A stretch of DNA of 64,000 bases, taken from the NCBI GenBank assembly GCA_033398695.1, contig JAWKAU010000044.1, positions 186,001 to 250,000 of the forward strand, in the 5' to 3' direction. Source of the stretch: Orobanche coerulescens. Taxonomy: Eukaryota > Streptophyta > Magnoliopsida > Lamiales > Orobanchaceae. Positions 18,013 to 59,413 of the stretch are shown piece by piece. Below the pieces are notes generated by a model. That model was not told the DNA's origin, did no database searches, and saw only the letters and a list, made by a program, of their open reading frames with translations. Both the position numbers and the translations under genes were made by a program. The first letter of the stretch is position 1. The number at the start of each line of letters is the position of its first letter.

Positions 18013-18370
18013 CGCGAGAACAAAGACATGCTATAGGATTTCGATTCAAGATATAATATAATATTATTTCCTTTTTAAAATAATTTTTGTCCACGTGCCT
18101 GCTTTTTATGTCAAACGTCATGTTCATTAAATGCCTTACACGACATCCGGACAATGAATCTCAAAAGCCGCGATGTTTTTAAATTGTTTATTATTTTTAA
18201 ACCGCCGTTTTAGGCATTTAGGGTATCAACCTATGTCGGAAGTGGGACCCATTGTATTTTAAAACCTTTTAATGGATTAGCGTATCATTACACTCAATCC
18301 ATCCTAACCGTTGATTTCAAAACCGGTTCCCATCCCTTAAAATCGACCATTCGTACTCTGCAAAACCCTA
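18013..18370. other. Element S intergenic region before the env-position ORFs
   Basis: AT-rich sequence without open frames or repeats that I can recognise. It separates the polypurine repeats from the promoter-like block at 18371. Confidence 0.5.
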
Positions 18371-18528
18371 TTTCGCGCCCAAGTATAAAAGGATCAGTAT
18401 CTGCCATTAGAGACTCTTTACGCTTTCTGCAATTACAAGAGTTCTCAAGCAAACAGCCTACATATTTTTCTGCATATTCACTGCGAAATTCGACTGTTTT
18501 CTTCCACCTTTGTTTTAAGAAAACATCA
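18371..18528 (+). promoter_or_regulatory. Putative promoter and 5' UTR of the env-position ORF
   Basis: TTTCGCGCCC (18371-18380) fits the E2F consensus TTTSSCGC. It is followed after three bases by a good TATA box, TATAAAA (18384-18390). The ORF ATG is at 18529, about 110 bases downstream of the expected start site, in a favourable context (ATCAATGGC). This looks like a separate internal promoter. The inference rests on sequence only. Confidence 0.55.
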
Positions 18529-19425
18529 ATGGCTAGTCAATCTTCTTCCCCTGTTCTGAAGAAATCCTCCAACATCATTGATGGCCGGATCTTCTCCAAA
18601 CCTGTCATCATCGAGCGTATTCTCTCGGAAACCAACGACTCAGAACCAATGGAGTATATCATTACTCGTCTTGAACAACAAGGTCTCTATCGCTTCGGGA
18701 GCAAGACCACCGACAAATACGACGCCCATCTGGTTGAGGAATTCTACCTCAACGCCGCCGTCCGTTTTCTGTCACTAGCCCAGGGAGGACATGTTGCTGA
18801 CATCACTGCAACAGTCCAGGGAGTGGAAATCTGTATCAATCGCGATCTACTCCAGAGAATCTACAGGCTGCCCGCCGATGGCCTGACCATGGACCAACTT
18901 GAGACGTTCGGGTCTCAAGAGCTCATTACTAAGTTTTATGGACTATTTACAGGGTCCAAAGTGGTTGATATGGTGACAACCACTTGTCACAAGAAAAATT
19001 TTCTTCTTCATTTTGTCTATCTTCATGACTTTTGCTCCAGGATCATTGAAAACCGAACCGGTGCGTTCGAGATGTGCACGAATTTAAGGTTCAGGATGAT
19101 GGTAGCTATTTTGACCTGTGAAAAGGTCAATTGGTGCCAAATAATTCTGAAACGTCTTCAAGAAGAGGTGTGCAAACCTGCCACCCAAAAGAAATCTTTT
19201 GGTTTAATGCTGAACTACATTCTGACGAAGTGCGGACTGACGCAATCCGCCGACGCAAAGAAAAATAGCTCGAGGATATACTTAGGAGGTGTCAAACCCA
19301 CTGCGTATAACCAGAGCACCATGCATTGCAACCACCCGAGAACCAGGCACATGCCTATTTCTGCCAACCCTAGAGATGAAACCGTGAAGGTCCCAGAAAT
19401 GGAATCTTCAAAGAAACGAAAGTGA
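18529..19425 (+). CDS. Element S env-position ORF, N-terminal part
   Basis: This is an open frame of 298 codons from the ATG after the promoter-like block, ending in TGA (19423-19425). It lies where Sireviruses carry their env-like gene. The protein starts MASQSSSPVLKKSSNIIDG. A globular region follows, with YITRLEQQGLYRFGS, LVEEFYLNAAVRFLS, ATVQGVEICINRDLLQRIY and LPADG. That layout resembles the 'putative plant transposon protein' domain seen in several plant LTR elements. I see no signal peptide and no obvious transmembrane helix, so a true envelope role is doubtful. The end is basic (SSKKRK). After the TGA the same frame stays open to a TAG at 19654-19656 and remains basic (SKKH, KKRLRRLSKIKAK), suggesting that the TGA is a mutation or a readthrough point. 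Function is unknown. Confidence 0.75.
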   Translation: MASQSSSPVLKKSSNIIDGRIFSKPVIIERILSETNDSEPMEYIITRLEQQGLYRFGSKTTDKYDAHLVEEFYLNAAVRFLSLAQGGHVADITATVQGVEICINRDLLQRIYRLPADGLTMDQLETFGSQELITKFYGLFTGSKVVDMVTTTCHKKNFLLHFVYLHDFCSRIIENRTGAFEMCTNLRFRMMVAILTCEKVNWCQIILKRLQEEVCKPATQKKSFGLMLNYILTKCGLTQSADAKKNSSRIYLGGVKPTAYNQSTMHCNHPRTRHMPISANPRDETVKVPEMESSKKRK

Positions 19426-19977
19426 TCTCACAGCAAGAAACACTCTGCTGGTGAGAAGTCCAAGAAGAGACTCAGGAGGCTCTCAAAAATCAAAGCCAAG
19501 CACTCCAAGGATGTCTCGCCCGTGGCGCAACCCACTGATGAAGAACCCTGTGGCCCAACCCCGTGGAAGAGGTGTCTCCTATCGTATCGACAGAGATCCC
19601 GAGCCTTGGCGGCTACGACGGATATAGAGACATCTCGCCAACGCTCAAGACTTTAGCGAGTCGGTGCCCATTCGAGCCAAAAGCTACCTCTCCTCTGCGG
19701 GATCCCACACCCGCACAGATCCAATTTCCTTCGGGGCACCATCCCCGCAAGGAGTCCATCTTCCGCACAGATCCCATACTGCACTGAATCCTCGAAACAG
19801 CGTCTGCACGTTATTCAAGTCCCTCCCGACTCGATCATAAATCAAACACTTCTTTCGGTTCAAATTGAACACGCGTACGAAAGATTCTGCAATGGAAAGG
19901 CTATAGGCTAGCTCCGTGCATTTATACACTGCATAACCGGAGCGAATGGAGCCACGAAGAGAGATTCGTCTCAAGTA
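19426..19977 (+). pseudogene. Element S env-position ORF, broken middle
   Basis: This segment joins the two open parts, which are in the same frame as each other. It holds Lys/Arg-rich sequence up to about 19510 and Pro/Ser-rich sequence later, but the frame is stopped at 19654-19656 and open pieces lie in another frame (19563-19787). Frameshifts of opposite sign probably occurred here. A minus-strand open frame at 19684-19983 is taken to be chance. Confidence 0.6.
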
Positions 19978-21603
19978 ATGCACTCAATGAAATTGAGGCC
20001 CCGCCGATGGGACAACGCCTCTTGCAAGGATCTAATTGAAAGCCACCGCCGCACAAATCGACGCCGGGAGGAAAGGAAAGAAGAAGTCGAGGATTCTCCC
20101 ATTAATCCAAAAGATGACGACGATCATGACTCGAGACGACGACGATGCTCTACAAGGTGTCCGAGAATGAGCCGTGAAGAGGTCAAGCCCGAGACCCTCT
20201 CCACCTTAAATGACGAAGGGCCTTCTACCCAAGCCAATCCCCCTTCGCCACAGCCCGAGAACATTCCCGACCAAGAGGAATCAGTCCCTCCAGTCGAGGA
20301 ACTTCAAGAAATTTTGGAACAGGCACCCAAGCCTGCTGCGACCGAAGAAGCTATTCCTGAAAGCCAACAGGAGGATTCAGTCCCTCCTGCATCCATGATT
20401 GCTGAAGAGTCTTCGCAACAGGAAGCTTCTCCACCAACTGTCGCCGAACCACAGGAAGCTGCTCCCGCCCCTTTAACCGTGGAATCCGAGGACGGTACCG
20501 AACCTGAGGATGTCCAACTTACTTCACGTCCATCCGTGAATGTAAGAAGGTTGAACGGCGCTGCAGACTTCGCCCAACCAGACTCTCCTATCTCTGCTGC
20601 ACGAAAAGAGCGCCTGCGAGCTCTTGGCCTTCAGACTGTATTTATCCAAGATGCAGTAAATGCTCTATCTTCCGTTGAAAAGGCACTGAATTGGATGCAC
20701 ACCTCTGCCGTCGAAGAAATGACCACTCTTCAACACGAAGTATCTCGAGTTGTCGACGCATTCATTCTTTTGCCAGAAGTTTTCAAGCAAGCCTTGAAGA
20801 TCATGGAAGATAAGCAGGAGCAACTGCTGAAGGAGGAAGCTACAAAGACAAGGATAGTTGAAGCCAAGACCGCTTGTGCAATGATTGAGAACAGCTCTCA
20901 ACTGCGTGCTCACGACAAATGCATTCAAGAAATGTCGCAGACTCTTTCCTCCCTTGTTGAAAGAATAACCAGCATCGAGACCAAACAGGACGCCGCTCTT
21001 GAAATCCTGCAAAGTCTTGATGAAGCCACAAAGGGGGAAGAGGCACGAGAAGCTGCTAGGAGAATAAGGCTGCAACAAGAAAGGGAATTTGAGGCTGCTC
21101 AGAACAGTATCACTGCCGAATTGAACAAGCTAGCACCTCAATCCCAAAGTTTTAAAATTTCAGGCTCCAGACCGGAATTCCATGACCCTAATATCCCTTG
21201 GCAAACTCTTATTCAAAGACCTTCGGAAATTCGTCTGCCGACCAACCGCAACCCAACTGCCGACGAAGTGAAGCACTGGAGGAAGAACGAACTGATGAGA
21301 TATTTTGTCAGACTCTTCAGGGAATCCGCCATCTTCAAAAATTATAAAACGTTAGCGGAAGCGGCAGATAAGTTTACGAAGATGCTTGAAGAAGGTAAAC
21401 TCCCTCTCCAAATCGAAATGAAATCCAAACATAGAAGAGGAGATCGGGTCACCCATCCAGAAGATTGGATACTTGCCTTTGATCGTTCATATGAAGGAAG
21501 AGCGATATACCAGGATCGAGGCAATGATTCACTTCAAAACTGGTGGCGCGGCACCGAGAACGAACCCGGAAAAAGACCATGGAGGCATGCGGATTATAGA
21601 TAA
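19978..21603 (+). CDS. Element S env-position ORF, coiled-coil C-terminal part
   Basis: This is an open frame of 541 codons in the same frame as the ORF at 18529. Residues 1-65 are basic (RRTNRRREERKEE, then acidic DDDDHDSRRRR). Residues 75-180 are acidic and Pro/Gln/Glu-rich (PPVEELQEILEQAP and similar), probably disordered. Residues 205-385 are predicted coiled coil with regular hydrophobic spacing (AVNALSSVEKALNWMHTSAV, then LKIMEDKQEQLLKEEATKT, then REAARRIRLQQEREFEAAQ). The last 140 residues form a mixed domain containing LIQRPSEIRLP and LMRYFVRLFRESAIFKNY. No membrane segment is visible. A coiled coil is shared with env-like proteins reported from Sireviruses. A nuclear or scaffold role would fit the basic and acidic segments equally well. 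Stop TAA; a poly(A) signal follows at 21686. Confidence 0.75.
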   Translation: MHSMKLRPRRWDNASCKDLIESHRRTNRRREERKEEVEDSPINPKDDDDHDSRRRRCSTRCPRMSREEVKPETLSTLNDEGPSTQANPPSPQPENIPDQEESVPPVEELQEILEQAPKPAATEEAIPESQQEDSVPPASMIAEESSQQEASPPTVAEPQEAAPAPLTVESEDGTEPEDVQLTSRPSVNVRRLNGAADFAQPDSPISAARKERLRALGLQTVFIQDAVNALSSVEKALNWMHTSAVEEMTTLQHEVSRVVDAFILLPEVFKQALKIMEDKQEQLLKEEATKTRIVEAKTACAMIENSSQLRAHDKCIQEMSQTLSSLVERITSIETKQDAALEILQSLDEATKGEEAREAARRIRLQQEREFEAAQNSITAELNKLAPQSQSFKISGSRPEFHDPNIPWQTLIQRPSEIRLPTNRNPTADEVKHWRKNELMRYFVRLFRESAIFKNYKTLAEAADKFTKMLEEGKLPLQIEMKSKHRRGDRVTHPEDWILAFDRSYEGRAIYQDRGNDSLQNWWRGTENEPGKRPWRHADYR

Positions 21604-21852: not shown

Positions 21853-23698
21853 GAATTTCGTTTTCCATCCATTTTTGATGAATTGATTGTTGTTAAATGA
21901 TGTTGTTAAATATATCCTGTGGATTGAACATCCATATTTCGGTTGGGAATTCCATTTTGATGTTTTTGTCGGGTCGATTCATATTCTTGGCCGTTTTGGG
22001 GGAAACCCTTGAACTTCGTCGTTGTTCCTTGAATTCAGCGGCTTTGGGTTGTACTTTGGAAGTCATTCTCGTTGTTATTGTTGTTGTTCGTAGTTTATTG
22101 TCGCGGGTTGTCGTTCGGTGGAGTCGGCGGGTTCGTAGTCAGTTCGTGCCATCCTACCTCGGCCAATTCTCCGCGTTGTGGTTATCCGAGGCAACTACCT
22201 TGTCCATACATTTCTATATTTTGTGAATAGAATGATCGGTGATCGTCTAAATGTGTTTGTTTGGTTGTTTTGAAATGAACTTTCAAAAGATTCGGTTTAG
22301 CCTCATCAAAGGCTCTCTTTCAAAACGTGTGTGTTTTGTGAATGTTGTGTCTCGTGATTGATTAAGTGAACCCCATGAATATTCTTGGTGTTGTTGTTGT
22401 GCTTTGATAATATAGATGCATATATTATCTCATTTCGGTACGTTGTGATTTGACAATTGTGTCGTGCTTTGTGTTTGTTGCCTTTGGGTGAATTGCTTAG
22501 ATATCCTTGGTATGACATGTTGATTGTGTGATTTGTGAATGTATTTTGCTCACCTCAGGAGGGTTCGACGGGGCCACGAAGGGAGTCGAATGGTTTCGCC
22601 CTGGATTCATGAGTGTTGTGTATGTTTTGTGAATGTATTTTGCTCACCTCGGGAGGGATCGACGGGGCCACGGAGGGAGTCCAATGGTTTCACCCTGGAT
22701 TCACGAGTAAAAACTTCACAAGTTGGTTTTATGTTTTGTGGATGTATTTTTCTCATCTCGGGAGGGTTCGATGGGGCCACGGAGGGAGTCTAATGGTTTC
22801 ACCCTGGATTCACGAGTAAAAACTTCACGAGTTGGTGTGTATGTTTTGTGAATGTATTTTGCTCACCTCGGGAGGGTTTGATGGGGCCACGGAGGGAGTC
22901 CAATGGTTTCGCCCTGGATTCACGAGTAAAACTTCACGAGTTGGTGTTGATTTTATGTACGTCGAGGACACGTGACGAAGGTTTTAACCCTGTGAGTTGT
23001 TGTTGGTTTTATTTGTTAAAACAAAACCTTTGGGCTGTGACCCCCCTGCTGATTTGAAAAGAGAAGGATTCGATAATCCTAAGTTTTTTTCTATTAAAAC
23101 TCCCGAGGGCATTTTAAACTATTTTACAAACCATCCTCGTTATTTACGATCTTTCGGATTTGGAAAGTTTTACTCAAACTCTTGCATCGGGAAGTGTTTT
23201 GTTTCTTTGTATTTGAACCTTTGAGGATTCCTGGTTATTATTATTCGTTGGAACTTGAATTGTATGACTCGTATTTTACACTTTGTACTTGCACTAGCAA
23301 AATAGTGGAATTTTGCTAACCCCCGAGTAATCGGGGGGTGGATGTCTGTTTTTGCATTCAGGTTTTGGGAGCGTAACACAGGGTCGACATGAAGGATGAT
23401 GAAAGATGATCGATACTAATCACATTAGGTCCCGTACATTGTCGTATTGGTTTAGTTATATTTTATTTCCGCTGCGGTATTCTTTCCCCGTTGTACGGGA
23501 GTGTGTTGTATTTCGATCCCTGCGTGGGCATGTATTGTGTTTTAGTTGTATGTATTTATTGAAAGACCAAATCGGTCTACTGAGTCATTCTAGCCTTAAA
23601 GGCATTTTTGAGTTGTTCGATGTATTTACCAGCCTGGTAGATCCTGGAGGAAGGGTTCTACGGCGTGTAATATCCCTGAGCGGATTGGGGGTGTTACA
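21853..23698 (+). repeat. Element B 5' LTR, 5'-truncated
   Basis: It is nearly identical to the right LTR from 28578 on and ends GGATTGGGGGTGTTACA next to a Met-tRNA PBS. The first 1.3 kb of the LTR, including the TATA and palindrome array, is missing. Four units of a GC-rich repeat (22535-22945) lie in the part downstream of where transcription should start. Confidence 0.88.
22535..22945 (+). repeat. Tandem repeat in LTR B, left copy
   Basis: Four units of about 90-110 bp begin at about 22538, 22627, 22734 and 22843. Each has GAATGTATTTTGCTCACCTC, GGAGGGTTCGACGGGGCCAC and CCCTGGATTCACGAGT. Open frames here on both strands come from the repeat lacking stops and are not genes. Confidence 0.85.
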
Positions 23699-23702
23699 TA
23701 CA

Positions 23703-23714
23703 TGGTATCGGAGC
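23703..23714 (+). promoter_or_regulatory. Element B primer binding site
   Basis: TGGTATCGGAGC, four bases inside the LTR, is the initiator-Met PBS with one change (A to G). Confidence 0.85.
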
Positions 23715-27848: not shown

Positions 27849-28275
27849 TAGCGCGCGCTATTGCCGAAAGACTTCGCACGCTAGCTCGGCAGGACTAGCG
27901 TACGTTATTAGGCCGGCCAGCGCATGCTATCGGGCTGGGCAGAGGGGTTTCTGGAGTTCTGGACTCGGGGAGGATCGGCAGGTAGCGCACGCTACTGTCG
28001 GTCGTGGCGCGCGCTAATCGGCATTATAGCACACGCTGCCGGCCGACTAGGGTACGTTACTGCCGGCGGTTTGGCCTGAGGGTTACGGGCCAGTCGGCTA
28101 GCGCGCCAGCGCCCGCGCAGCCGCACGCCATCGGTCGGCGGTAGGTCCCGGTCGGCAATCGGGTCAACAGTGCCGGGTCGTGCGGGCCCCGGACGAGGGT
28201 TCTGGGCGATACTGGCTGATAGCGCACGCTACTGCCGGAAGGCTAGCGCACGCTAGGCCGCGCCAGTATAAATAT
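27849..28275 (+). promoter_or_regulatory. LTR B palindrome array and TATA box
   Basis: About ten sites of the form TAGCGYRCGCTA occur at 27849, 27872, 27896, 27918, 27983, 28005, 28027, 28048, 28220 and 28244. Spacings are 21-24 bp, or 65 bp across gaps. The last ends 11 bp before TATAAATAT (28267-28275). Each site has two CG dinucleotides. Confidence 0.75.
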
Positions 28276-29249
28276 GGCCGAGCAGTCATATTTTCATTCA
28301 TTTTTCATTTCTATCTTCTCATTTCCGCGGCTGGAGGCTTAGTGGTCAAGGAGAGATGTTGTCAAGCAATTAATCCACGAAGTTTGAGAGTTCATATCAT
28401 TGATTAATCATCCTATAACATCCTTTGATCCAACGAATCAAGGTTAATTAATCCATGATGAGTATGATTAATCTTAGTATTATTCATGTGTTTAACATCA
28501 TTTAATCCATTGTTCTTCACCAAATCAAGGTATATTTCTTAATTTTCCCTCGAGTTGACTTTTTGGGGGATTGGTTCTTGATTTCGTTTTCCATCCATTT
28601 TTGATGAATCGATTGTTGTTAAATGATGTTGTTAAACATATCCTATGGATTGAACATCCATATTTTGGCTGGGAATTCCATTTTCATGTTTTTGTCGGCT
28701 CGATTCATATTCTTGGCCGTTTTGGGGGAAACCCTTGAACTTCGTCGTTGTTCCTTGAATTCAGCAGCTTTGGGTTGTACTTTGGAAGTCATTCTCGTTG
28801 TTATTGTTGTTCGTAGTTTATTGTCGTGGGTTGTCGTTCGGTGGAGTCGGCGGGTTCATAGTCGTTTCGTGCCATCCTATCTCGGCCAATTCTTTGCGTT
28901 GTGGTTATTCGAGGCAAGTACCTTGTCCATACATTTCTATGTTTTGTGAATATAATGATCGATGATCGTCCAAATGTGTTTGTTTGGTTGTTTTGAAATG
29001 AACTTTCAAAAGATTCAGTTTAGCCTCATCAAAGGTTCTCTTTCAAAACGTGTGTGTTTTGTGAATGTTGTTTCTCGTGATTGATTAAGTGAACCCCATG
29101 AATATGCTTGGTGTTTTTGTTGTGCTTTGATAATATATATGCATATATTATCTCATTTCGGTACGTTGTGATTCGACAATTGTGTCGTGCTTTGTGTTTG
29201 TTGCCTTTGGGTGAATTGCTTGGATATCCTTGCTGTGACATGTTGGTTG

Positions 29250-29655
29250 TGTGATTTGTGAATGTATTTCGCTCACCTCGGGAGGGTTCGACGGGTCCAC
29301 GGAGGGAGTCCAATGGTTTCGCCCTGGATTCACGAGTGTTGTGTGTGTTTTGTGAATGTATGTTGCTCACCTCTGGAGGGTTCGATGGGGCCACGGAGGG
29401 AGTCCAATGGTTTCGCCCTGGATTCACGAGTAAAAACTTCACGAGTCGGTGTGTATATTTTGTGAATGTATTTTTCTCACCTCGGGAGGGTTCGACGGGG
29501 CCACGGAGGGAGTCCAATGGTTTCGCCCTGGATTCACGAGTAAAAACTTCACGAGTTGGTGTTTATGTTTTGTGAATGTACTTTGCTCACCTCGGGAGGG
29601 TTCGACGGGGCCACAGAGGGAGTCCAATGGTTTCGCCGTGGATTCACGAGTAAAA
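29250..29655 (+). repeat. Tandem repeat in LTR B, right copy
   Basis: Four units matching those in the left LTR start near 29257, 29348, 29458 and 29567. Unit number is the same in both LTRs. Confidence 0.85.
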
Positions 29656-30505
29656 CTTCACGAGTTGGTGTTGATTTTATTTATGTCGAGGACACGTGAC
29701 GAAGGTTTTAACCCTGTGAACTGTTGTTAGTTTTATTTGTTAAAACAAAACCTTTGGGATGTGACCCCCTGCTGATTTGAAAAGAGAAGGATTCGATAAT
29801 CCTAAGTTGTTTTCTATTAAAACTCCCGAGGCCATTTTAAACTATTTTACAAACCGTCCTCATTATTTACGATCTTTCGGATTTGGAAAGTTTTACTCAA
29901 ACTCTTGCCTCGGGAAGTATTTTGTTTCGTTATATTTGAACATTTGAGGATTCCTGGTTATTATTATTCGTTGGAACTTGAATTGTATGACTCGTATTTT
30001 GCACTTTGTACTTGCACTAGCAAAATAGTGGAATTTTGCTAACCCCCGAGTAATCGGGGCGTGGATGTCTGTTTTTTCATTCAGGTTTTGGGAGCGTAAC
30101 ACAGGGTCAGCATGAAGGATGATGAAATATGATCGATACTAATCACATGAGGTCCCGTACATTGTTGTGGTTTAGTTGTATTTTATTTCTGTTGTGGTAT
30201 TCTTTCCCCGTTGTACGGGAGTGTGTTGTATTTCGACCCCTGCGTGGGCATGTATTGTGTTTGAGTTGTATGTATTTATTGAAAGACCAAATCGGTCTAC
30301 TGAGTCATTTTAGCCTTAAAGGCATTTTTGAGTTGTTCGATGTATTTACCAGTCTGGTAGATCCTTGAGGAAGGGTTCTACAGCGTGTAATATCCCTGAG
30401 CGGATTGGGGGTGTTACAGTATTGTGCACGAATATTGCTTAAACGCAAGAGAACCTATGATTTAGATCATCAAACCTTATTCATAGTTGTTATTATCGTC
30501 AAAAT

Positions 30506-31421: not shown

Positions 31422-32604
31422 TGTAATATCCGACTGTAATTTTTCATTTTTACCTGTCGTTGTATTATTCGGATAATTTGATTATCATGAATCGTTGCAT
31501 TTAGTATTATGTTGAGGTATTATAGATTTGAACTTCATATTGTTGTTATTTCATTTCATACTTGATGATTCGATGTTAATTAGAGGGTTGCATTTTTTGA
31601 ACTTTTCTGTTGATGTAGCGTACGCTACGTAGCATGATTAACATACGTTAATCTTGTGCCTTAACGTACGTAATGTTTCCTCTGTTGCGTACGCTAAGAG
31701 AGAATCTGACATCAGTTGACTACAGCACGTGAACCTCTTATCCGTTGGCATGCATGTGATGATGTCTGGGCTGTCGTGTCGGCCAGAGTCAACTTTTATT
31801 AGCGTGCGTAACACCCTTTTTACTAGCGTGCGCGAATGGCCTGCAGATTCAAGACAGTAGCCACTGTAAGCCGCTTACGTATGTAACATTAACTGGGTAG
31901 CGTACGTAAGAGAGTTAACGTACACTAAATTTCCCCGATAGCGTACGTTAAGCCGATACAGTCTATTTATATGACCAGCCTGTTTTTCATTTCTTCACAA
32001 CTCTAAACCGATTTTCTCTCTATATATCGCCCCTCTGCACTTCCAAATCAATATCAACCCCCTCCAACTTGTATTTAAGCCTTAAATCTTGGAGTGGAGC
32101 TCATTTCCTTGAAGATTATGAGGTGTTCTTGAGCTTGGAGTGTACTTTCTCGTAGTGTTGAGGTTGTTCTTCGTTTCTGGAGGTAGGTGTACTTTCTTCT
32201 CTGTATTGTTTTCATATGTTGATGTTGATAATGAAGTATACTTCACCTAAAGTTAGATTAATCAAATAAAACATAGTTTTAATCCAACTTTTTGAACCCT
32301 TTTGATGAATATGATAAATGAGGGTTTGAGATGGATGTATTCTTGATGATATAGTGATATTAACCATGTTGTAACTATCATACTCATCTTGCTGGACGAA
32401 TTTAGCTCAGTAGAACATCTTTGAATCGGTTAACATCACCATAGTTGGATTTAAACAATAAAATTCATATCATAAAGTGTTTAAATACCATGCTTGATAT
32501 TCACTTACCTTGAGAAGAACTTTCCAATGTTTGAAGATAGTAAAATGTTTCCTTATTTCAGAAACCTTAGAAACTGTTGGCCACTTAAGTATACCGCGAC
32601 TCCG
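31422..32604 (+). repeat. Gypsy LTR C, 5' part only
   Basis: It starts TGTAATATCCGACTG and shares GTTGTATTATTCGGATAATT with the reverse complement of solo LTR I (59340-59410), so it is the same family in the opposite orientation. It has the array and TATA (31616-31972), then a downstream part ending where LTR D begins. The 3' half is missing. Confidence 0.75.
31616..31972 (+). promoter_or_regulatory. LTR C palindrome array and TATA box
   Basis: Ten sites of the form TWRCGTACGYWA occur at 31616, 31639, 31662, 31685, 31800, 31824, 31875, 31898, 31916 and 31939. Spacings are 23, 23, 23, 115, 24, 51, 23, 18 and 23. The last ends 13 bp before TATTTATAT (31964-31972). Confidence 0.78.
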
Positions 32605-33270
32605 TGTAATATCCGTACCTTTCCATTTTTAGCAGTTTCTATTTTTGGTGTATGTCTATTTTTATCGACTCGCTTGTAAACGTTTCGACATTTTGAATCT
32701 ACTTTATTCTTGGAGTTTTTCCATTTGGACGAGTTTCGGAGGTGTTTTTACGAAATTCCATTTCATGTTATGTTTTGCCGTATGCGGGTTCGATTCTCAT
32801 GAAACTTGTTCGTTTTCGTTGTTTCTTTGTTTGCATGAGTTCCTATGGTTGAGTTGTTCGTGTTGTGACTTTCGGTTTGTCAATCTGAAGTCGTATCGTG
32901 ATTTTCGGACACTTGGGCTATTTTTGTAATTTCCTATAAGTTTAGGGAATTTCATATTCTTTGTCGTATTTCGGATTCCCCGGTAGTCGGAGTTGTATTT
33001 TCTTTTAACGCTTAGATTCGTCATCGAGAATACTTCGTAACCATGTTTTTGGTTCGATAGCAGGTCCGAGTTTCGGAGTCGTCTGGGACAGTCCGGACAT
33101 CAGCTTCTTAGACTGTTGTCCAGTAGGGTGTTATGGCCGTAACACCCCATGCATTACTGCCATAATGTTGGCCTTGTTACGTCCGTAAGTTATCCCCTGT
33201 TACGGTCGTAACAGCCTGCTGTTTGAAGAATAGTGGGGAGAGGTCAGAAGCCTCATTTCACTTCTTTTCG
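32605..33270 (+). repeat. Gypsy LTR D, left fragment
   Basis: It starts TGTAATATCCGTACC. From about 32850 to 33268 it parallels the fragment at 47943-48330. Four weathered palindromes lie at about 33133, 33155, 33177 and 33200. It is cut at a CTTTTC microhomology against element E pol. Confidence 0.75.
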
Positions 33271-34232: not shown

Positions 34233-36821
34233 TGTAACACCCCAAACTAGGCGGATATTACAGTGCCGTAGATCCCCAACTGGGACCCACCAGGCAAATG
34301 AAAATGAATGAATTACACAGGATAAAATGTAGTACCGAACTACATTACAACAATAATTACTCTGATGAGGAGTTTGGTTACAACACACCAGGACAATACC
34401 GAATACTAGTGTATTTTATATGAAGATAAAATACACAACACTGAATGAAACGGAGTATTCAAATGAAAGTCTGCAGCGGAAAAATAAAGGACAATAACAT
34501 GAATAACTAAAAGATCGGGGCCCCCTACTAGTATCACTGGGACTCCTCGACATCAACATGCTATCCCCGTGCTTTTGCCTTGCCATGACCTGAAAAACAA
34601 AATCCCCAAACGGGGTCAGTTACAAAGAACAACAATCCTCAAGGGTTGAAAATACGCAATCATGATTATATCTGAAGTTATGAAATATCCTGTCGAAACA
34701 TACGCAATCAAACATGCTATATGCATCAACTAACAGTACGGCTCAAAGGGTGGCGCCACACTACGCCCGGGATGGAAATGTGTCCGTGCACAAGCCACCA
34801 ACGATCGAATACACGCGTGGTCTTGTACCTAATCAGTCTCACGAGACACATTGACTCGTGTGCACAGTCCAATGTGAGGCCAACAACCAACACACGACAT
34901 AAATGTGCCCGACATGAAAATCCTACACATACCAACCGGCACGCCAGTATGACCCGGAATGCCACGTTATAACAAAAGTGACATCGAAAATGAATAATGA
35001 CTCACCGAGGTGGAATGGTAATGAAATAAATGACAGCTCAATGAAAAGATTGGAACCGTCGTTCCTTATGACTGAAGTGATTAATTGACAACAACAAGTT
35101 TTGATACGGTTAATACAATAATGAATGAGTTATGATTATGAATGAACAACATCAAAAGGGATGAATATCCTTTTAGCCGAGTAAGAATTAACTTACTCAA
35201 CACCGGTGACAATTATCCTTCCACGAACAATGTCCTAATTGAGATATCGGTCGCTCGAACAACCTTGAACAATTCAATTACCAATAATCCGTTCAATATA
35301 CGAATCAAACACGAATATAACGAACTCAAAACGCCAATACGACTAAACCAAGTCCATTGAGGCATTAAATCAAACACGTTGCGTCCGAACTCCGATTGTT
35401 TACAATCAAATCTCAATATACCAATATCAAATCCCCCAAGAAATGTTTCAAACCCACAAAACATCTTCAATACGATTAATAATCCAAAACGAATATCCAA
35501 AAACGTGATTATAACGACGATTAATTGAAAACCCCCAATCTCAACTCGATATTCAAAGTGTTCTAGAATAATCATCAATAATCCAATGAATCCTTATACA
35601 AACTCATAATCATATACATAGCCCTTCATATAACATGATTATAACGTCCAAAACATCATCTCTCAACACAAAATCGAAATCCAAGGTGTTGAAGAAATTA
35701 CCTCTTGAAGATCCAACCACTTCGATCCGATGAATACGAGTTAAAACGAGTATCCAAGCTTCCCAAATGAATGAGGATGATGAAAGTCTACACTCAAGTG
35801 ATTGAGGATGGAAAAATCCCTCTCTCAAGTCTCTCTCTCGGAACAAAATGAAGAAAGGAAGAAAATGGTGAAAAATTGTCCCGCCGAGTCCTTAAATATC
35901 ACGGAAGTTACGGCCGTAACTCGGCCCTCTTACGGCCGTAACTTTCCAAGTCAACGGCCTTACGGCCAGAATCGCCAACTCAGACGGCCGTAACTCGGCT
36001 TCGTCGAAAGCTCGCCGACAGACTTACGGCCAGAATCCGCTCCAGAGTTACGGCGTAACTCCGCCTTCGTCAAAAACACCCGTCGACACCTTACGGCCGT
36101 ACCGCACAACTTACGGCCAGAATCGATGATACGGCCGTATCCGCCAACCTTACGCGTAAGCCCTCTTCGTCGAAATGACCAGCACCTTGCTCGCAGCCAG
36201 ACGGCCAGAATCGGCCAAGCCTTACGGCCGTACCTTCCTCGACTTACGGCCGTATGCCGCAACCCTTACGGCCGTAAGTCACCCTTGGTCGACAACACTA
36301 GAAATTTACGAACACCACTTACGGCCGTATCTCATCTTCCTTACGGCCGTAATTCACCTTCGGCCAAAATGCCTGGATAGCCTGCTGGACCGCTTACGGC
36401 CGTAACCGGCCAGCCTTACGGCCGTACCCGCTGACTTACAGCCGTATCCCAGAACCTTACGGCCGTAACTCGATGCTGGACAAGGTGAATAAATCCGATA
36501 ATTCCGATTCCTCGCTACGACTGATGAATGATCCGACATATAATACGAATGTGGAAGTGAACAAGTCTAACACTAGCCAAAGATGGTACTCCCAGTACAA
36601 GGCTATCAATCACAATGAAAATGATCATACTCCCGTCTCGATCTAAAAACGGAGATAAAATGACGATCCGTAACTGATATACGATTACAACATGCCAACA
36701 TTGAACGCAAATGAGTGATTCATGAATGATGAGTGATTATTAATGAGTGAGAATTACTGAGTGACAAATACAGACTGATAATTACCGAATGAAAATGACT
36801 GAGTTACAACCGGGTATTACA
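34233..36821 (-). repeat. Element F 3' LTR
   Basis: It starts TGTAACACCCCAAACTAGG and ends CCGGGTATTACA on the plus strand. It carries the palindrome array at 35908-36471. Several sites here are altered relative to the other LTR (see findings). Short open frames within are not genes. Confidence 0.92.
35891..36471 (-). promoter_or_regulatory. Element F 3' LTR palindrome array and TATA-like box
   Basis: Sites of the form TTACGGCCGTAA occur from 35908, next to a TATTTAAG box (minus strand, 35891-35898; gap 9 bp). Relative to the partner LTR, at least four sites read ACGGCCAGAATC in place of ACGGCCGTAACC (about 35960, 36026, 36113, 36200). Confidence 0.75.
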
Positions 36822-39444: not shown

Positions 39445-39832
39445 TCGTCAATCGATGACAATGATACCATGAATGATTGAACATTTCGATTGCCCTAGAA
39501 TGGTCAGTCGATAAAAAGAGATACCAATAATGATTGAACAACTCGATTGCCTTAGAAAGGCCAATCGATGAAGATGATACAATGAATGTTTGAATGACTC
39601 GATTGTCTTAGAAAGGCCAATCGATGGAAATGATGCAATGAATGATTGAATGACTCGATTGTCTTAGAAAAGCCAATCGATGAAAATGATACAATGAATG
39701 ATTGAATGACTCGATTGTCTTAGAAAAGCCAATCGATGGAAATGATACAAGGAATGATTGAATAACTCGATTTCCTTAGAAAGGCCAATCGATGAGAATG
39801 ATACAATGAATGATTGAATAGTTCGATTGCGG
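39445..39832. repeat. 56-bp tandem repeat inside element F pol
   Basis: About seven units of 56 bp (first spacing 57). GATTGAA-type anchors occur at 39475, 39532, 39588, 39644, 39700, 39756 and 39812. Each unit has ACTCGATTGYCTTAGAAA and GCCAATCGATG. It lies in the protease-RT linker, and 56 is not a multiple of three, so each added unit shifts the frame. Confidence 0.93.
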
Positions 39833-41486: not shown

Positions 41487-41500
41487 GCTCCGATACCAAC
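41487..41500 (-). promoter_or_regulatory. Element F primer binding site
   Basis: The minus strand reads GTTGGTATCGGAGC beside the 5' LTR. This is an initiator-Met PBS with one change. Confidence 0.85.
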
Positions 41501-41502
41501 TC

Positions 41503-44097
41503 TGTAACACCCCAAACTAGGCGGATATTACAGTGCCGTAGATCCCCAACTGGGACCCACCAGGCAAATTAAAATGAATGAATTACACAGGATAAAATGT
41601 AGTACCGAACTACATTACAACAATAATTACTCCGATGAGGAGTTTGGTTACAACACACCAGGACAATACCGAATACTAGTGTATTTTATATGAAGATAAA
41701 ATACATAACACTGAATGAAACGGAGTATTCAAATGAAAGTCTGCAGCGGAAAAATAAAGGACAATAACATGAATAACTGAAAGATCGGGGCCCCCTACTA
41801 GTATCACTGGGACTCCTCGACATCAACATGCTATCCCCGTGCTTTTGCCTTGCCATGACCTGAAAAACAAAATCCCCAAACGGGGTCAGTTACAAAGAAC
41901 AACAATCCTCAAGGGTTGAAAATACACAATCATGATTATATCTGAAGTTATGAAATATCCTGTCGAAACATACGCAATCAAACATGCTATATGCATCAAC
42001 TAACAGTACGGCTCAAAGGGTGGCGCCACACTACGCCCGGGATGGAAATGTGTCCGTGCACAAGCCACCAACGATCGAATACACGCGTGGTCTTGTACCT
42101 AATCAGTCTCACGAGACACATTGACTCGTGTGCACAGTCCAATGTGAGGCCAACAACCAACACACGACATAAATGTGCCCGACATGAAAATCCTACACAT
42201 ACCAACCGCACGCCAAGATGACCGGAATGCCACGTTATAACAAAAGTGACATCGAAAATGAATAATGACTCACCGAGGTGGAATGGTAATGAAATAAATG
42301 ACACTCAATGAAAAGATTGGAACCGCTGTTCCTTATGACTGAAGTGATTAATTGACAACAACAAGTTTTGATACGGTTAATACAATAATGAATGAGTTAT
42401 GATTATGAATGAACAACATCAAAAGGGATGAATATCCTTTTAGCCGAGTAAGAATTAACTTACTCAACACCGGTGACAATTATCCTTCCACGAACAATGT
42501 CCTAATTGAGATATCGGTCGCTCGAACAACCTTGAACAATTCAATTACCAACAATCCGTTCAATATACGAATCAAACACGAATATAACGAACTCAAAACG
42601 CCAATACGACTAAACCAAGTCCATTGAGGCATTAAATCAAACACGTTGCGTCCGAACTCCGATTGTTTACAATCAAACCTCAATATACCAATATCAAATC
42701 CCCCAAGAAATGTTTCAAACCCACAAAACATCTTCAATACGATTAATAATCCAAAACGAATATCCAAAAACGTGATTATAACGACGATTAATTGAAAACC
42801 CCCAATCTCAACTCGATATTCAAAGTGTTCTAGAATAATCATCAATAATCCAATGAATCCTTATACAAACTCATAATCATATACATATCCCTTCATATAA
42901 CATGATTATAACGTCCAAAACATCATCTCTCAACACAAAATCGAAATCCAAGGTGTTGAAGAAATTACCTCTTGAAGATCCAACCACTTCGATCCGATGA
43001 ATACGAGTTAAAACGAGTATCCAAGCTTCCCAAATGAATGAGGATGATGAAAGTCTACACTCAAGTGATTGAGGATGGAAAAATCCCTCTCTCAAGTCTC
43101 TCTCTCGGAACAAAATGAAGAAAGGAAGAAAATGGTGAAAAATTGTCCCGGCCGAGTCCTTAAATACTGCCGGAAGTTACGGCCGTAACTCGGCCCTCTT
43201 ACGGCCGTAACTTTCCAAGTCAACGGCCTTACGGCCGTAACCGGCCAACTCGTACGGCCGTAACTCGGCTTCGTCCGAAAGCCTGCCGACAGACTTACGG
43301 CCGTAACCGCCCCATAGTTACGGGCGTAACCCGCCTTCGTCAAAAACACCCGTCGACAGCCTTACGGCCGTACCGCACACCTTACGGCCGTAACTCGGAT
43401 GATACGGCCGTATCCGGCCAACCTTACGGGCGTAAGCCCTCTTCGTCGAAATGACCAGGCACCTTGCCTGCAGCGTACGGCCGTAACCGGCCAAGCCTTA
43501 CGGCCGTACCTTCCTCGACTTACGGCCGTATGCTGCAACCCTTACGGCCGTAAGTCACCCTTGGTCGACAACACTAGAAATTTACGAACACCACTTACGG
43601 CCGTATCTCATCTTCCTTACGGCCGTAACTCACCTTCGGCCAAAATGCCTGGATAGCCTGCTGGACCGCTTACGGCCGTAACCGGCCAGCCTTACGGCCG
43701 TACCCGCTGACTTACGGCCGTATCCCAGAACCTTACGGCCGTAACTCGATGCTGGACAAGGTGAATAAATCTGATAATTCCGATTCCTCGCTACGACTGA
43801 TGAATGATCCGACATATAATACGAATGTGGAAGTGAACAAGTCTAACACTAGCCAAAGATGGTACTCCCAGTACAAGGCTATCAATCACAATGAAAATGA
43901 TCATACTCCCGTCTCGATCTAAAAACGGAGATAAAATGACGATCGGTAACTGATATACGATTACAACATGCCAACATTGAACGCAAATGAGTGATTCATG
44001 AATGATGAGTGATTATTAATGAGTGAGAATTACTGAGTGACAAATACAGACTGATAATTACCGAATGAAAATGACTGAGTTACAACCGGGTATTACA
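41503..44097 (-). repeat. Element F 5' LTR
   Basis: The partner of 34233-36821, with the same ends. It keeps a regular array of about 20 palindromes. Small differences from the partner outside the array include a cluster near 42205-42230 (loss of single G or C bases). Confidence 0.92.
43159..43744 (-). promoter_or_regulatory. Element F 5' LTR palindrome array and TATA-like box
   Basis: Twenty sites of TTACGGCCGTAA or close variants start at 43177, 43199, 43229, 43252, 43295, 43318, 43362, 43382, 43402, 43424, 43475, 43498, 43520, 43542, 43595, 43617, 43670, 43692, 43712 and 43733. Most gaps are 20-23 or about 43-53 bp. TATTTAAG (minus strand, 43159-43166) lies 10 bp from the first site. Confidence 0.85.
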
Positions 44098-47942: not shown

Positions 47943-49625
47943 GTTGTTCGTGTTGTGACTTTCGGTTTGTCAATCTAACGTCGTATCATGATTTTCGGAC
48001 ACTTGAGCCATTTTTGTAATTTCCTATAAGTTTAGGGAATTTCATCTTCTTTGTCGTATTTCGGATTCCCCGGTAGTCGGAGTTGTATTTTCTTTTAATG
48101 CTTAGATTCGTCATCGAGAATACTTCATAACCATATTTTTGGTTCGATAGCAGGTCCGAGTTTCGGAGTCATCGGGGATAGTTCGGACATCAGCTTCTTA
48201 GACTGCTGTCCAGTAGGATGTTACGGCCGTAACACCCCATGCATTACGGCCGTAAGTTATCACCTGTTACGGCCGTAATAGCATGTTGTTTTAAGAACAG
48301 CGGGCAGAGGTTAGAAACCTCATTTCACATCTTTTCTCTCGTTTTTCCTCGTCAGGCGATCAAAGAACCTCCAGGGCGATTTCTTCCACTTCTCATCCAT
48401 GTATTCTTCATTTTCCATCACCGTAGAGTCGGTATATCATATCATCATCAACGTAATCATCTCCCTCTGTCCGAATTCAAGGTATTTTCGTCTAGAACCC
48501 TAACTTGTTAATTTTGGGGGTTTTCCGCATTTTGCTTGTTAGATTCGAATTGTTCAAGTATGTTGTGATATTCCTTATCAATTATTGTTATTGGGTGACT
48601 CCCAATCCAATTTTTGTCGAGTTTAATCCGTGAATTGTCGATTCGGGGAGGTTTTGCGTAAACCCTCGCCCGTATCGATTGATCGTATTGTGTCATAGCT
48701 TGTAATCGGGGTTGTGGGCGTTTTCAATTCGATTAATGTTATCGTATGGGACTGAGTTATGTTAATCCTTCATTTAGGAATGGCCGTTTTGCATCCGGAT
48801 CATTCGTAGTCGTTGTTCTTTCCTGTTTCGTCAAGAATGTCTCAAAGGCAAGTACTTTACATTTGTTTACATATTCTAGTATTTGAATTATGGCTTTTCG
48901 TGGTTGTTGTGGATGGATATGTGTATGTTCACCTAAGTACGGTCTGACGGGGCCTCTAGGGATACGTATTGCCATGAGTGTGCGTATCACGAACTATGGT
49001 TAACCACCCAGGGATGTCCGACGGGGCTTTGTGGGGTACAGTGGCCATGAGTCTCGTACCAACGGTTAACTTTGAATTGTTTTGTTGGAGAAATGTGTTT
49101 TGTGCTTGTGCACCGTAAATATTCCGGAATATAAATGATTTCTAAAATGATTTTTGGCGCATATTTTCAGCTGAGTAGAATGGTAGTTCAAATGGATTGT
49201 ACTTGCACTAGCAGTTGTCGCTAACCCCTTAAATGGGAGAAATAATTTTGTATTTCAGGTATAGGTCATGGAAGAAAACAAGCATGCGAGCCGTACGAGG
49301 ATGATGGGTAGGCGTGATTCTGTTCAGTGGTTGTCTATTGGTGTCTTGTTTTGGGATTTCTTTATTATGTCATTTGCTTAAGTACTCGAGTACTTCTTTC
49401 TTGAATTTATTAATTTTGTGTACCCATTTTGGGGAGTGGATTTGATGTCAAATTGTATTGTTGAATTTCAACCTTTGGTGTTGAATGTCGTGGATTGTGA
49501 AATTGTCGTTTTGTTGATGATGTATGTCTTTGTCGAACGTCATTTTGGTAAGTTAGCCTGGTGGATTCCATAATGTGGGGGTCCACGGTACTGTAATATG
49601 ACCTGATCATCTTGGGGGTGTTACA
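47943..49625 (+). repeat. Gypsy LTR D, right fragment
   Basis: It starts within the LTR (GGTTGTTCGTGTTGTGAC) and ends GATCATCTTGGGGGTGTTACA. The region after the TATA position has the GTACGGTCTGACGGGG and GATGTCCGACGGGG repeats near 48938-49030. No primer site follows, so it is the right edge of a 3' or solo LTR. Confidence 0.78.
48221..48296 (+). promoter_or_regulatory. LTR D palindromes
   Basis: Three perfect TTACGGCCGTAA sites lie at 48221, 48244 and 48267, exactly 23 bp apart. A weak TATA-like GTTTTAAG lies about 10 bp after the last site. This is a short version of the array in F. Confidence 0.7.
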
Positions 49626-54420: not shown

Positions 54421-55260
54421 CTCTCATTCCATTCAAACTTCAGATCTCTTCATGTTACTGAGTCATAGGGATGGCTATTTTTGAGAACCCTTCTATGAAT
54501 CTTTGGTAATAGCTAGCTAAGCCCAGAAAACTACAGACTTTGCTCGCATTCTTAGGCATCCCCCAACTACTAACTGCCTCAATCTTGCCAAGATCTACCT
54601 CAATTCCCTTAGAGGTCACCACATGACCAAGGAATCCAACTCGGTCTAACCAGAATTCACATTTGTGTCTAAGTGTCTCCAACGTGACTCATTGCATTCT
54701 TAGGCATCCCCCAACTACTAACTGCCTCAATCTTTTTCTTGAACTTTGCATACAACTCATTGCAAAGTGTCTCCAACGTGACTCTTAGATGTTTTTGGTG
54801 TTGTTTGTTGTCCTTGAAATGCACCAAAATATTATCTATGAAGATAATCACGAACTTGTCTAAGTATGGGTGGAACACCCTGTTCATCAAATCCATAAAA
54901 ATAGCGGGTGCATTACTTGGATCGAATGGCATCAACACAATCTCGTAGTGCCCATAACGCATTCTAAATGCCGTCTTTGAAATATCACTCTCCTTAATCT
55001 TCAACTGATGGTAGCCATATCTTAAATTAATCTTTGAAAAAGTATTGGCACCTCTCAATTGATTGAACAAATACTATATTCTTGGGAGTGGATACTTGTT
55101 CTTCATAGTGAGTCGATTTGACTCCCTGTAATCGATACACATCCTGAGTGATCCATCATTCTTCTTAACAAATAAAATGGGAGGCCCCATGGCGATACAC
55201 TAGGGCAGATAAACCATAGCTCCAACAACTCTTGGATTCGAACTTTCAACTCTTGAAGTT
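54421..55260 (-). pseudogene. Element H reverse transcriptase with internal duplication
   Basis: The frame 54669-55070 contains [40 protein letters not shown] and [13 protein letters not shown], in which the catalytic FIDD has become FIDN. The thumb region is duplicated: two blocks recur in the order A-B-A-B (A near 54546 and 54692, B near 54668 and 54766). The N-terminal part toward 55260 is broken. Confidence 0.85.
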
Positions 55261-56760: not shown

Positions 56761-59413
56761 TGTAACACCCCAATAAGGCAGCTATTACAGTGCCGTGGAC
56801 CCCACACTGGGATCCACCAGGCGATACCCAAAACATAGATTAAATACACAATACATGTGATACCGAACCACAAAATATTGTACTTACTCCGATTGGGAGT
56901 TTACAGTAGTATGGCCAACGACCTTATTATACACGGGATTCAAATATAAGTATAACCCATATGGAGATGGAATATACTTTAAATAACAATACATTTGTTC
57001 ATAATTAAAATAAAGCGGAAAGATAACATTACACGGTACGAACATGACCGGACAACAAAAGACTTGGGCCCCCCGAACTAGTATCCTTCGAACCATTCGC
57101 CATCACCATGATCTTTCCGTGCCTTGCCTTTACCTCGACCTAAAATACAACACAAGTATTTCGCCCAACACAGGGTCAGATATACATGATAAATGGTTTC
57201 TCAAGATATTATACAATTCACATATATAAGATTTCAAGGAAAACAACACGACTAACGAACATACCCCTCGGGCGTATGAATGCTTAGTCACAAAACGTCG
57301 AACACATCCAAATATATAAATGGACTATGAAAGACTAAGATAGTACGGCTCAAGATGGACATCACAGTACGCCCGATCCGGAAATGTGTCAGTGCACATG
57401 TCCACCCCGTATACGGAATCCAGGATATACGTGGGACAATGTACCTAATTAGCCTCCCGAACTATGTCTCGTGTGCACAGTCCAATACGGAAACGTCCAC
57501 GCATGACTATATATGTGCCTGGATAAAAATCCTACACAATAACCAATCGGAACACAAATATGATTTCAGATATGTCACGATACAACATGACAACGAATTC
57601 AATAAATCACATATGACGAACTTGGGAATGCAATCCCATGATGAAAACGGGACATCATCAAATAATATTAATTCACGGATCACAATTTCATAAGTGTTTC
57701 ATATACACGAAACTCATAATCATCACAAGAATCCAAACATCATTATAACCAAGCAAGATAACTTGCCTCAACATGGATACGAGAATAGTCCTTCCTTGTC
57801 GAACGAACAAACAGTCCTCGACTTAATATCGGTTACTCGAACAATCAACCTTGTAAGGGATACAATCCATTCAAAACACATTTCCATAACTATCGGTGTC
57901 TAGTTCAGCGAATCGATAACCTAAATTCAATTCACTTAGTTCGACTATCTTTGTATTAATTCCATTTTAAAGATTCATACTAACTTCAATTTATTCCCAT
58001 TATTGGCTATCATTCAAGGTGTTCTCGATTATTCGTATAATTCAAACGAATTAGAGTTTATCAAGAATAAACATCAATGTTTTGAAAGAATAACCTAAAC
58101 AACTATGTTCTATAAAGCTTTGATCAAAATGAAGGTTACTCAACGACTAACATTGTTTGAACGGATTGAATTGTAAAGTTATTACCATGTTCATTGATTA
58201 TGAGTTCACCTAGTTAGATTAATGATGTAGTCGAGTTATTCATTATAAGATGATTACAAATTCATCAATAAGGTGAATTAATCATCTCTGGAACTTGGTT
58301 GATATAAATCAGGGTTCTACCAAATTAAATGAAGAACCCTAAGCCAATATTGTTTAAAAACCTCCTTAAGCATGGTGTTTGGGTTTAATGAAATGGTGGT
58401 AGTTCTACAAACAACCTATCTAAAATGAAGCTAAGGATTATTATCGTCTTGATGATGTAAAAAATCTAGTCAAGAGAGTGTGGTTATACTACACATGATC
58501 ATCACTATTAAAACACTAAGGATTCATCATTACAAAACCCTTAATCACCAAGTTGTTAAAAGTTAACTAAAATTTACTAGTTTAATTCATCTATAGGTGT
58601 AGTATGCTCCACCTCTAGTATCAAAACTACAAATTTACAAAGTGGAATCGCACACATATCTTCAGAAATGAAGAACACTACACCAAAATCACAAGAACAC
58701 ACCCTAAGCTTCAAGAATGACTCCAAACTTCCAATCAACAAGCTCCAAACCAAGATGTATAGCTCAAGCACAAGTGGAAAGAAGGTAGAAGTGATCTAGG
58801 GAGGCAGGGGGATGCTTATACTGGAGAAATCACGAAGTTGAACATGCAAAATGAAAGACACAAGTTGTCTTTTTATAACAGCACAGTTCGTTACGTACGT
58901 TATACACCAAAGGATAACGTACGTTAGGAGCTTTACGTACGCTACACCAAAAGTGTTACATACGTAAGCTAATTCCAGAGGCTACTGGACTAAAACACGA
59001 ACATCATTACATACGTTATCGCTTGGAGCATTACGTACGTAATGTAGGTCAACTAGGTTGCCTCCAAAAGATCAGATATTCGAATCACGCCCGACCCCAC
59101 ACGCCGAAAGTTGAGATCGGATACGACTACAAGTATTACGTACGTAAAAGGCACCTCCTTACGTACGTAAATCTCACATTATAACGTACGTTATGCTAAA
59201 GGGTTAGCGTACGTTAAGTACAGAATTACTAGCCCAAAAATGCACTTATCTATACAACGCTGAAAATTCAATCATAGTGCGAGTGAGTTTTTATTAAGTC
59301 TATTATGATATATTCCAACATCAACAAACATTAAAGAAATGCAACAAGACTACAACAGTATTGAATTATCCGAATAATACAACAGTAAGCAAGAATTTTC
59401 GTCGGATATTACA
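56761..59413 (-). repeat. Solo gypsy LTR I
   Basis: It starts TGTAACACCCCAATAAGG and ends CGTCGGATATTACA, flanked by perfect CTCTT duplicates (56756-56760 and 59414-59418). It has no internal sequence, so it is a solo LTR. It belongs to the family of the element A LTR and of LTR C. TATA box and array lie at 58871-59216. Confidence 0.92.
58871..59216 (-). promoter_or_regulatory. LTR I palindrome array and TATA box
   Basis: Ten sites TTACGTACGTAA or close variants occur at 58891, 58914, 58933, 58956, 59007, 59031, 59136, 59159, 59182 and 59205. Gaps are 23, 19, 23, 51, 24, 105, 23, 23 and 23. TTATAAAA (minus strand, 58871-58878) lies 12 bp from the first site. Confidence 0.82.

Follow-up and report, generated by a model that had tools for sequence, protein, structure and literature searches.

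Arrays of CpG-bearing palindromes at conserved distances from a TATA-like box as putative homotypic enhancers in the LTRs of related Ty3/gypsy retrotransposons

In a 64-kb stretch of a 3.65-Gb genome (contig C44, positions 186001-250000; hereafter, the window), the 12-bp palindrome T[TA][AG]CGNNCG[CT][TA]A is arrayed in several LTRs. The element types point to a plant as the source. The first-pass annotation of this DNA had reported arrays in the LTRs B, C, D, F and I, and all of them were found where it had placed them (Table 1). When at most one mismatch was allowed and a CpG-to-TpG/CpA change was scored as half, the window contained 71 sites. Seven array segments, 3,957 bp in all, account for 63 of them, and the other 60 kb for 8. 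Exact sites numbered 5 in B, 6 in C, 11 in F2 and 8 in I, and the shuffled counterparts of these segments never exceeded 2 (means of 0.03-0.06, 1000 dinucleotide shuffles each). The sequence TATAAATA starts 11 bp past the last site in B, TATTTATA 13 bp past it in C and TTATAAAA 12 bp past it in I. Seven of the nine gaps are identical between C and I, one differs by 1 bp and one by 10 bp; note that a permissively scored alignment matches the two LTRs at 60% over 1,005 columns, and thus they are not independent cases.

Table 1. Palindrome arrays and associated features of the carrier elements in the window (window coordinates)
Feature	Position	Strand	Remarks
Primer-binding-site-like sequence of B	23703..23714	+	follows the truncated 5' LTR, which ends near 23699
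Array B, 7 sites	27849..28255	+	most are TAGCG-NN-CGCTA, two carry one mismatch; the two sites closest to TATA are 24 bp apart
Array C, 10 sites	31616..31950	+	gaps (5' to TATA) 23,23,23,115,24,51,23,18,23
Array D2, three sites	33131..33211	+	truncated second D LTR; gaps 46,23; one site CpG-decayed
Array F1	35908..36468	-	in the 3' LTR of element F; kept out of spacing statistics
Element F, 5' LTR	41503-44097	-	LTR pair with 34233-36821, 97.8% identical; primer-binding-site-like sequence at 41498
Array F2, 19 sites (at most one mismatch)	43177..43744	-	TTACGGCCGTAA type; in the 5' LTR of element F
Array D, three sites	48221..48278	+	TTACGGCCGTAA sites; gaps 23,23; degenerate TTTAAG box 11 bp past the last site
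Array I, 10 sites	58891..59216	-	gaps (5' to TATA) 23,23,23,105,24,51,23,18,24

Compared with its partner LTR, the F1 region (35880-36530) shows one and the same multi-base change at four sites and single-base losses at CGG-like words. These recurrent, identical changes resemble a systematic artefact of sequencing or assembly more than mutation, and they are the reason for the exclusion of F1 noted in Table 1.

The carriers of the arrays are related Ty3/gypsy LTR retrotransposons, which we take to belong to the Tekay/Del clade. Copies of I and D elsewhere in the genome have LTR pairs and gag, protease, RT, RNase H and integrase domains of Ty3/gypsy type (internal matches to RVP_2, RVT_1 and SH3_Tf2-1); a Chromo domain was matched in one D copy only (E 0.0016), below its cut-off. 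The interior of element F contains a zinc-knuckle ORF and an RT match between the LTRs. Compared over 133-161 aa, the RT domains of I, D, F and element A of the window share 70-87% identity, and these four share 60-63% with a further RT fragment (54735-55169) that is tied to no array. LTR C was assigned to the I-like LTRs and, by its homology to I, is a putative Ty3/gypsy sequence. Primer-binding-site-like sequences follow the LTRs of B, F, D and I, and an initiator-Met-like primer binding site is a Ty3/gypsy trait. The 3' LTR of B ends near 30418. In both B LTRs the promoter is followed by tandem repeats of 94 and 109-110 bp (22525-22947 and 29248-29671), and in element F a 56-bp unit of the interior is tandemly repeated in 6.8 copies (39449-39830), besides tandem repeats with units of 20, 22 and 66 bp.

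The exact palindrome occurs 2,615,881 times genome-wide (0.72 per kb) versus 46,903 times for the reversed pattern, an approximately 56-fold excess over a control that carries GC where the site carries CG, so that the two patterns are not CpG-matched. Among the first 100 places listed on contig C1, 98 have a neighbour at most 250 bp away and 2 do not, and 31 of the 81 gaps of up to 250 bp measure 23 or 24 bp. The first-pass annotation had described a real pattern, and one larger than it stated. Its estimate that the spacings are mostly 20-24 bp was right in that 23 bp is the commonest step, but the range was too narrow because 18, 19 and 20 bp also recur. Pairs of the form TTACGNNCGTAA-N11-TTACGNNCGTAA numbered 35,197 versus 0 for the control, and the spacers were highly varied among the places listed. 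The loci L064-L094 used below were found through such TTACG-type pairs and are therefore biased to TTA flanks, whereas the listing of contig C1 is free of that bias.

The arrays keep a nearly constant distance to the core promoter. In 21 of 27 arrays, a TATA-like box (scored as any of six permissive words) starts 9-14 bp past the nearest site; in three it starts at 18-19 bp, and in three none was present within 32 bp. At random positions from the same loci or the window, the first TATA-like word fell at 9-14 bp in 1.1-1.4%. In six later arrays the box was found at 10-11 bp (three), 18 bp (one) and 23 bp (one), and one had none nearby. The fixed distance to TATA claimed earlier is borne out in the window, where the boxes lie 10-13 bp past the last site in B, C, D, F2 and I.

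Positions further upstream were compared in 20 oriented segments, all picked for having a TATA-like box, which starts 9-14 bp past the nearest site in 17 of them. Measured from that nearest site, distances of 23+-1 bp recurred in 19 segments, 42+-1 in 8, 65+-1 in 10, 117+-2 in 13 and 140+-2 in 12. These recurrent positions are common to sites with the centre CGTACG and sites with the centre CGGCCG: all five distances are present in the CGTACG arrays C, I, L065a, L065b, L078b and L084 and in the CGGCCG array L069. The gaps of the CGTACG module appear in mirror order in L066 and L082, with TATA 18 bp away, and L089 (89% identical to F) matches the F2 positions within 1 bp up to 247. L091 has sites at 23, 74, 97, 120 and 143, L092 repeats D, and L090, L093 and L094 fit the recurrent positions more poorly. 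Note that the families share ancestry, and the arrays are therefore not independent. Part of L066 is 82% identical to the B region.

The first-pass annotation also held that the rotation of the sites on the helix is fixed. Across 20 arrays and periods of 8-30 bp, the strongest period was 10.7 bp (power 4.37), and shuffling the order of gaps within arrays gave 3.18 and never reached the observed value (0/2000); separated by class, the same shuffling gave p 0.21 for the CGTACG/CGYGCG group and p 0.043 for the CGGCCG group. This set omits near copies, overlapping places and short arrays (L064, L068, L070-L075, L077, L079, L083, L087 and D2), with D standing for L071-L075, and F1 for its suspect sequence. 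In 15 representative arrays (L066, L067, L080, L082, L085, L088, L089, L090 and L092-L094 further omitted, L091 added and L071 used for D), the peak below 16 bp was again 10.7 bp, with a power of 4.05 versus 1.33 when gaps were jittered by up to 5 bp and 2.35 when the long gaps alone were jittered (0/2000 in both cases). Exact phasing at 10.5 bp was rejected, because its power in the set of 20 arrays (0.95) was no better than that of jittered arrays.

The CGGCCG class shows good one-face phasing, the CGTACG class weak phasing. The four CGGCCG arrays reached 8.21, versus 1.75 under full jitter and 3.87 under long-gap jitter (0/2000 each), and F2 alone has its best period at 10.7 bp with a power of 12.72 of a possible 19. 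In the proximal 215 bp of the eight CGTACG arrays, the strongest period under 16 bp was 8.3 bp (2.67), not 10.7 bp, and the value in the 10.2-11.0 band (2.53) was reached by 1/2000 full jitters and 287/2000 long-gap jitters; array B alone showed no significant phasing. Among the first 100 places listed on contig C1, the peak below 16 bp was at 10.8 bp (2.79 versus 1.40, 0/1000), with a higher one overall at 23.3 bp. Since 23 bp corresponds to 2.15 turns of 10.7 bp, adjacent sites are not quite in register, and it is the cumulative positions that carry the phase signal. Thus, the earlier proposal holds insofar as phasing exceeds jittered controls, strongly in the CGGCCG class, but rotation is not fixed in the CGTACG class; the relatedness of the families and the tandem repeats in F mean that all these numbers overstate independence.

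The flanks and the centre of the palindrome are coupled. Among 211 exact sites (window sites including F1, plus some near copies), the half-site flank was TTA in 149 of 150 for the centre GC and TAG in 26 of 28 for CA/TG, while the centre TA was flanked by TTA (119), TAA (41), TAG (24) and TTG (2). The first 100 places listed on contig C1 gave the same picture (TAG in 121 of 128 for CA/TG and TTA in 22 of 22 for GC). Three classes can thus be distinguished, TTA-CG-GC, TAG-CG-YR and TWR-CG-TA, and this coupling suggests recognition by different proteins or paralogs. Plant bZIP and NAC factors read ACGT, and SBP factors read GTAC. The ACGT-type (bZIP) or NAC-type factors named earlier as candidates would not account for the CGGCCG class, which has neither an ACGT nor a GTAC core, and the same holds for SBP proteins.

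We also compared sites with spacers. In seven CGTACG-class arrays the sites are 72-94% identical between arrays, whereas the four short spacers exceed shuffled identity in only three of 21 pairs (C-L076, I-L065a and I-L078b). In the other 18 pairs the short spacers are at chance identity and the gaps are nevertheless kept, so length is conserved where sequence is not. The spacer of 39-41 bp in this class (for example, 31836-31874 in the window) is up to 62% similar between some families, and a CAGTAGCC-like core occurs in it in several families; this is perhaps a candidate site of a second factor.

Within family D (30 copies), variable cells in A/T columns amounted to 5/641 in sites, 24/328 in short spacers and 259/5561 in the rest of the queried region, so the sites of this family are constrained. 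Family I (28 copies) showed no extra constraint inside sites by the same measure (13/2184 in sites, 7/1035 in spacers and 14/2352 in the rest), perhaps because it is young, and the case for constraint therefore rests on D and on the cross-family comparison. A first count had suggested selection inside the family I sites (0.63% versus 2.83% non-CpG divergence); however, it was confounded by query choice and base composition, the signal was gone when the count was restricted to A/T columns of the queried region, and we withdrew it.

Taken with a rough probability of 0.6, our reading is that, in related Ty3/gypsy elements, the arrays serve LTR promoters as homotypic enhancers and are bound by symmetric dimers in fixed geometry. 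Repeated symmetric sites do stand at conserved positions from the core promoter, as expected of a homotypic enhancer, and the palindromes support the proposal, made from the window alone, of dimer-type sites. Each palindrome would bind one symmetric protein dimer reading T[TA][AG]CG on either side of the 2-bp centre, and several dimers at set positions from the TATA box could contact one another and the initiation machinery, possibly binding cooperatively and activating transcription. The protein would most likely be a host factor exploited by the elements, with families differing in the site variant used, and its binding may be sensitive to methylation of the CpGs in the site. A more specific form of this reading, to which we give somewhat less than even odds, is an enhanceosome-like LTR promoter of fixed geometry, common to Ty3/gypsy families, whose recognition code is split into at least three coupled classes, with the same positions in two of them.

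The binding protein might instead be encoded by the elements themselves, as VANC is by VANDAL and TnpA by Spm, and lift the silencing of the arrays that they carry, with the site classes reflecting family-specific specificities. The three coupled classes would fit such a protein, and so would the gain and loss of whole 23-bp units: the gaps are 23,23,23 in fourteen of the 30 D copies, one unit is missing in eleven, and five show other offsets. VANC motifs are likewise expanded by tandem repeats, according to the part of PMC5735166 available to us. The coding capacity of the elements points the other way. In four I and D copies, 13 of the 16 ORFs of 150 aa or more match gag-pol domains, which makes a host factor likelier than a VANC-like one. 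The remaining three are a 152-aa ORF that overlaps gag-pol in another frame and, where the D coding region begins, two ORFs of 160 aa that have no accepted Pfam match and so could be candidates: one has no match at all, and the other has a sub-threshold match to EBNA2_Core (E 0.00042) that we took as low-complexity. Both are located just ahead of gag and may be its start. Two further ORFs of the window (18214-19425 and 19912-21603) were examined as possible element-encoded regulators and discarded: with a primer-binding-site-like sequence at 23703, the stretch 21855-23699 is a truncated 5' LTR, and both ORFs, being upstream of it, are consequently outside B. They encode 403 aa with a sub-threshold match to Transposase_32 (E 8.8e-7) and 563 aa without a Pfam match.

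Lasting protection of the sites, which self-encoded anti-silencing might have left behind, was not seen either: CpG decay inside sites was not lower than outside in I (64/559 versus 53/470) or in D (43/212 versus 330/1899). We therefore dropped the idea that the sites are protected from methylation. The result means that resident copies show no lasting protection, and it is silent on active copies. With this evidence on both sides, a self-encoded protein appears unlikely.

A further explanation, slightly less likely still, is that the palindromes act as nucleic-acid structure, with LTR transcripts folding through the self-complementary units and feeding small RNAs. Predicted folding was indeed stronger than in 40 shuffles (z -2.6 in B, -3.3 in C, -11.3 in F2 and -4.8 in I); however, any palindrome array would fold in this way, and pairing between units needs no fixed spacing, TATA distance or 10.7-bp phasing. 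In a 2016 follow-up study, the palindromes of maize Sireviruses were reportedly proposed to fold and feed small RNAs. The 2016 study on Sirevirus palindromes is cited in PMC5311732, as seen in the accessible part of that article.

It is improbable that the arrays are recognised by a host repressor or silencing factor in a KRAB-zinc-finger-like role. One host factor could in principle recognise many element families, but elements would be expected to lose sites for a repressor, and yet the D sites are conserved and the sites are very numerous. Least probable of all is that a 20-24 bp unit was duplicated in tandem and the resulting arrays serve no function, as the repeats in F and the whole-unit differences among D copies might suggest, since sites and spacer lengths are kept where the sequence of most spacers is down to chance identity, the same positions occur in two site classes, and D sites are less variable than D spacers.

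If the homotypic-enhancer reading is right, these LTRs would be a natural record of promoter geometry under selection, with positions retained and spacer sequence lost in several families and at least two recognition classes, and helical spacing in plant enhancers would become testable. They would also offer a route to the factor behind palindromic LTR boxes, a question left by the 2010 Sirevirus paper discussed below. If the split into coupled classes is true as well, specificity would have changed jointly in the elements and in a small family of dimeric DNA-binding proteins, and some 2.6 million sites, which add up to about 0.9% of the genome's length, would have been seeded in the process. 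How would the host targets of a factor with 2.6 million potential sites compete with the repeats?

Several known systems resemble these arrays in part. The subterminal repeats of Spm/CACTA (bound by TnpA) and Ac comprise multiple short CG-containing sites near a promoter with methylation-sensitive binding, and the present arrays share with them such sites near a transposon promoter. Spm/CACTA and Ac are, however, DNA transposons, their sites serve transposition, and the protein is element-encoded; we know of no fixed, phased layout in these repeats. The BII boxes of Tnt1 and the Su(Hw) array of Drosophila gypsy are repeated transcription-factor sites in the regulatory region of a retrotransposon, but their sequences differ from those of the present sites, and to our knowledge they do not have fixed palindrome positions relative to TATA.

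VANDAL is a Mutator-like DNA element. The VANC anti-silencing protein had been offered as a parallel in design, and this parallel is apt in that both systems have short, family-specific motif arrays in noncoding transposon DNA with gain and loss of repeats (PMC5735166 and PMC10398659, in the parts accessible to us). It is otherwise loose, because the VANC21 motifs (YAGTATTAY) are non-palindromic, arrayed in one orientation and free of CpG, and VANC is encoded by the transposon (PMC5735166, accessible part), whereas the present sites are palindromic and CpG-bearing; the nearest precedent, which the first-pass annotation had not named, is the Sirevirus boxes.

In the accessible part of Bousios et al. 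2010 (PMC2829016), palindromic repeated-motif (RM) boxes are described in Sirevirus LTRs upstream of a conserved TATA. They are element-specific and CG-rich, number at least 8 and up to 32 per element and 3-14 in the 3' LTR, and share a CGG-CCG core in 12 of the 13 elements, Tnd-1 being the exception; they also occur upstream of env, and their clusters define CpG islands (PMC2829016). The boxes are called 'Sirevirus specific' within the Ty1/copia set studied there, no common binding factor was identified, and that part of the paper contains no analysis of their spacing or phasing (PMC2829016). In the open literature searched, including the accessible parts of PMC11963269 and PMC3414828, we found no description of such arrays in Ty3/gypsy LTRs. 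As far as this comparison goes, the arrays described here are of the same kind as the Sirevirus boxes, in another superfamily: the LTR carries many copies of a palindromic box ahead of TATA, and the CGG-CCG core is present in the CGGCCG class (F and D), although it is missing from the CGTACG and CGYRCG classes. Unlike the Ty1/copia Sireviruses, the present carriers are Ty3/gypsy elements by the internal domains of I and D. Relative to the precedent so described, what is new is the Ty3/gypsy carriers, the conserved positions, the phasing and the coupled classes.
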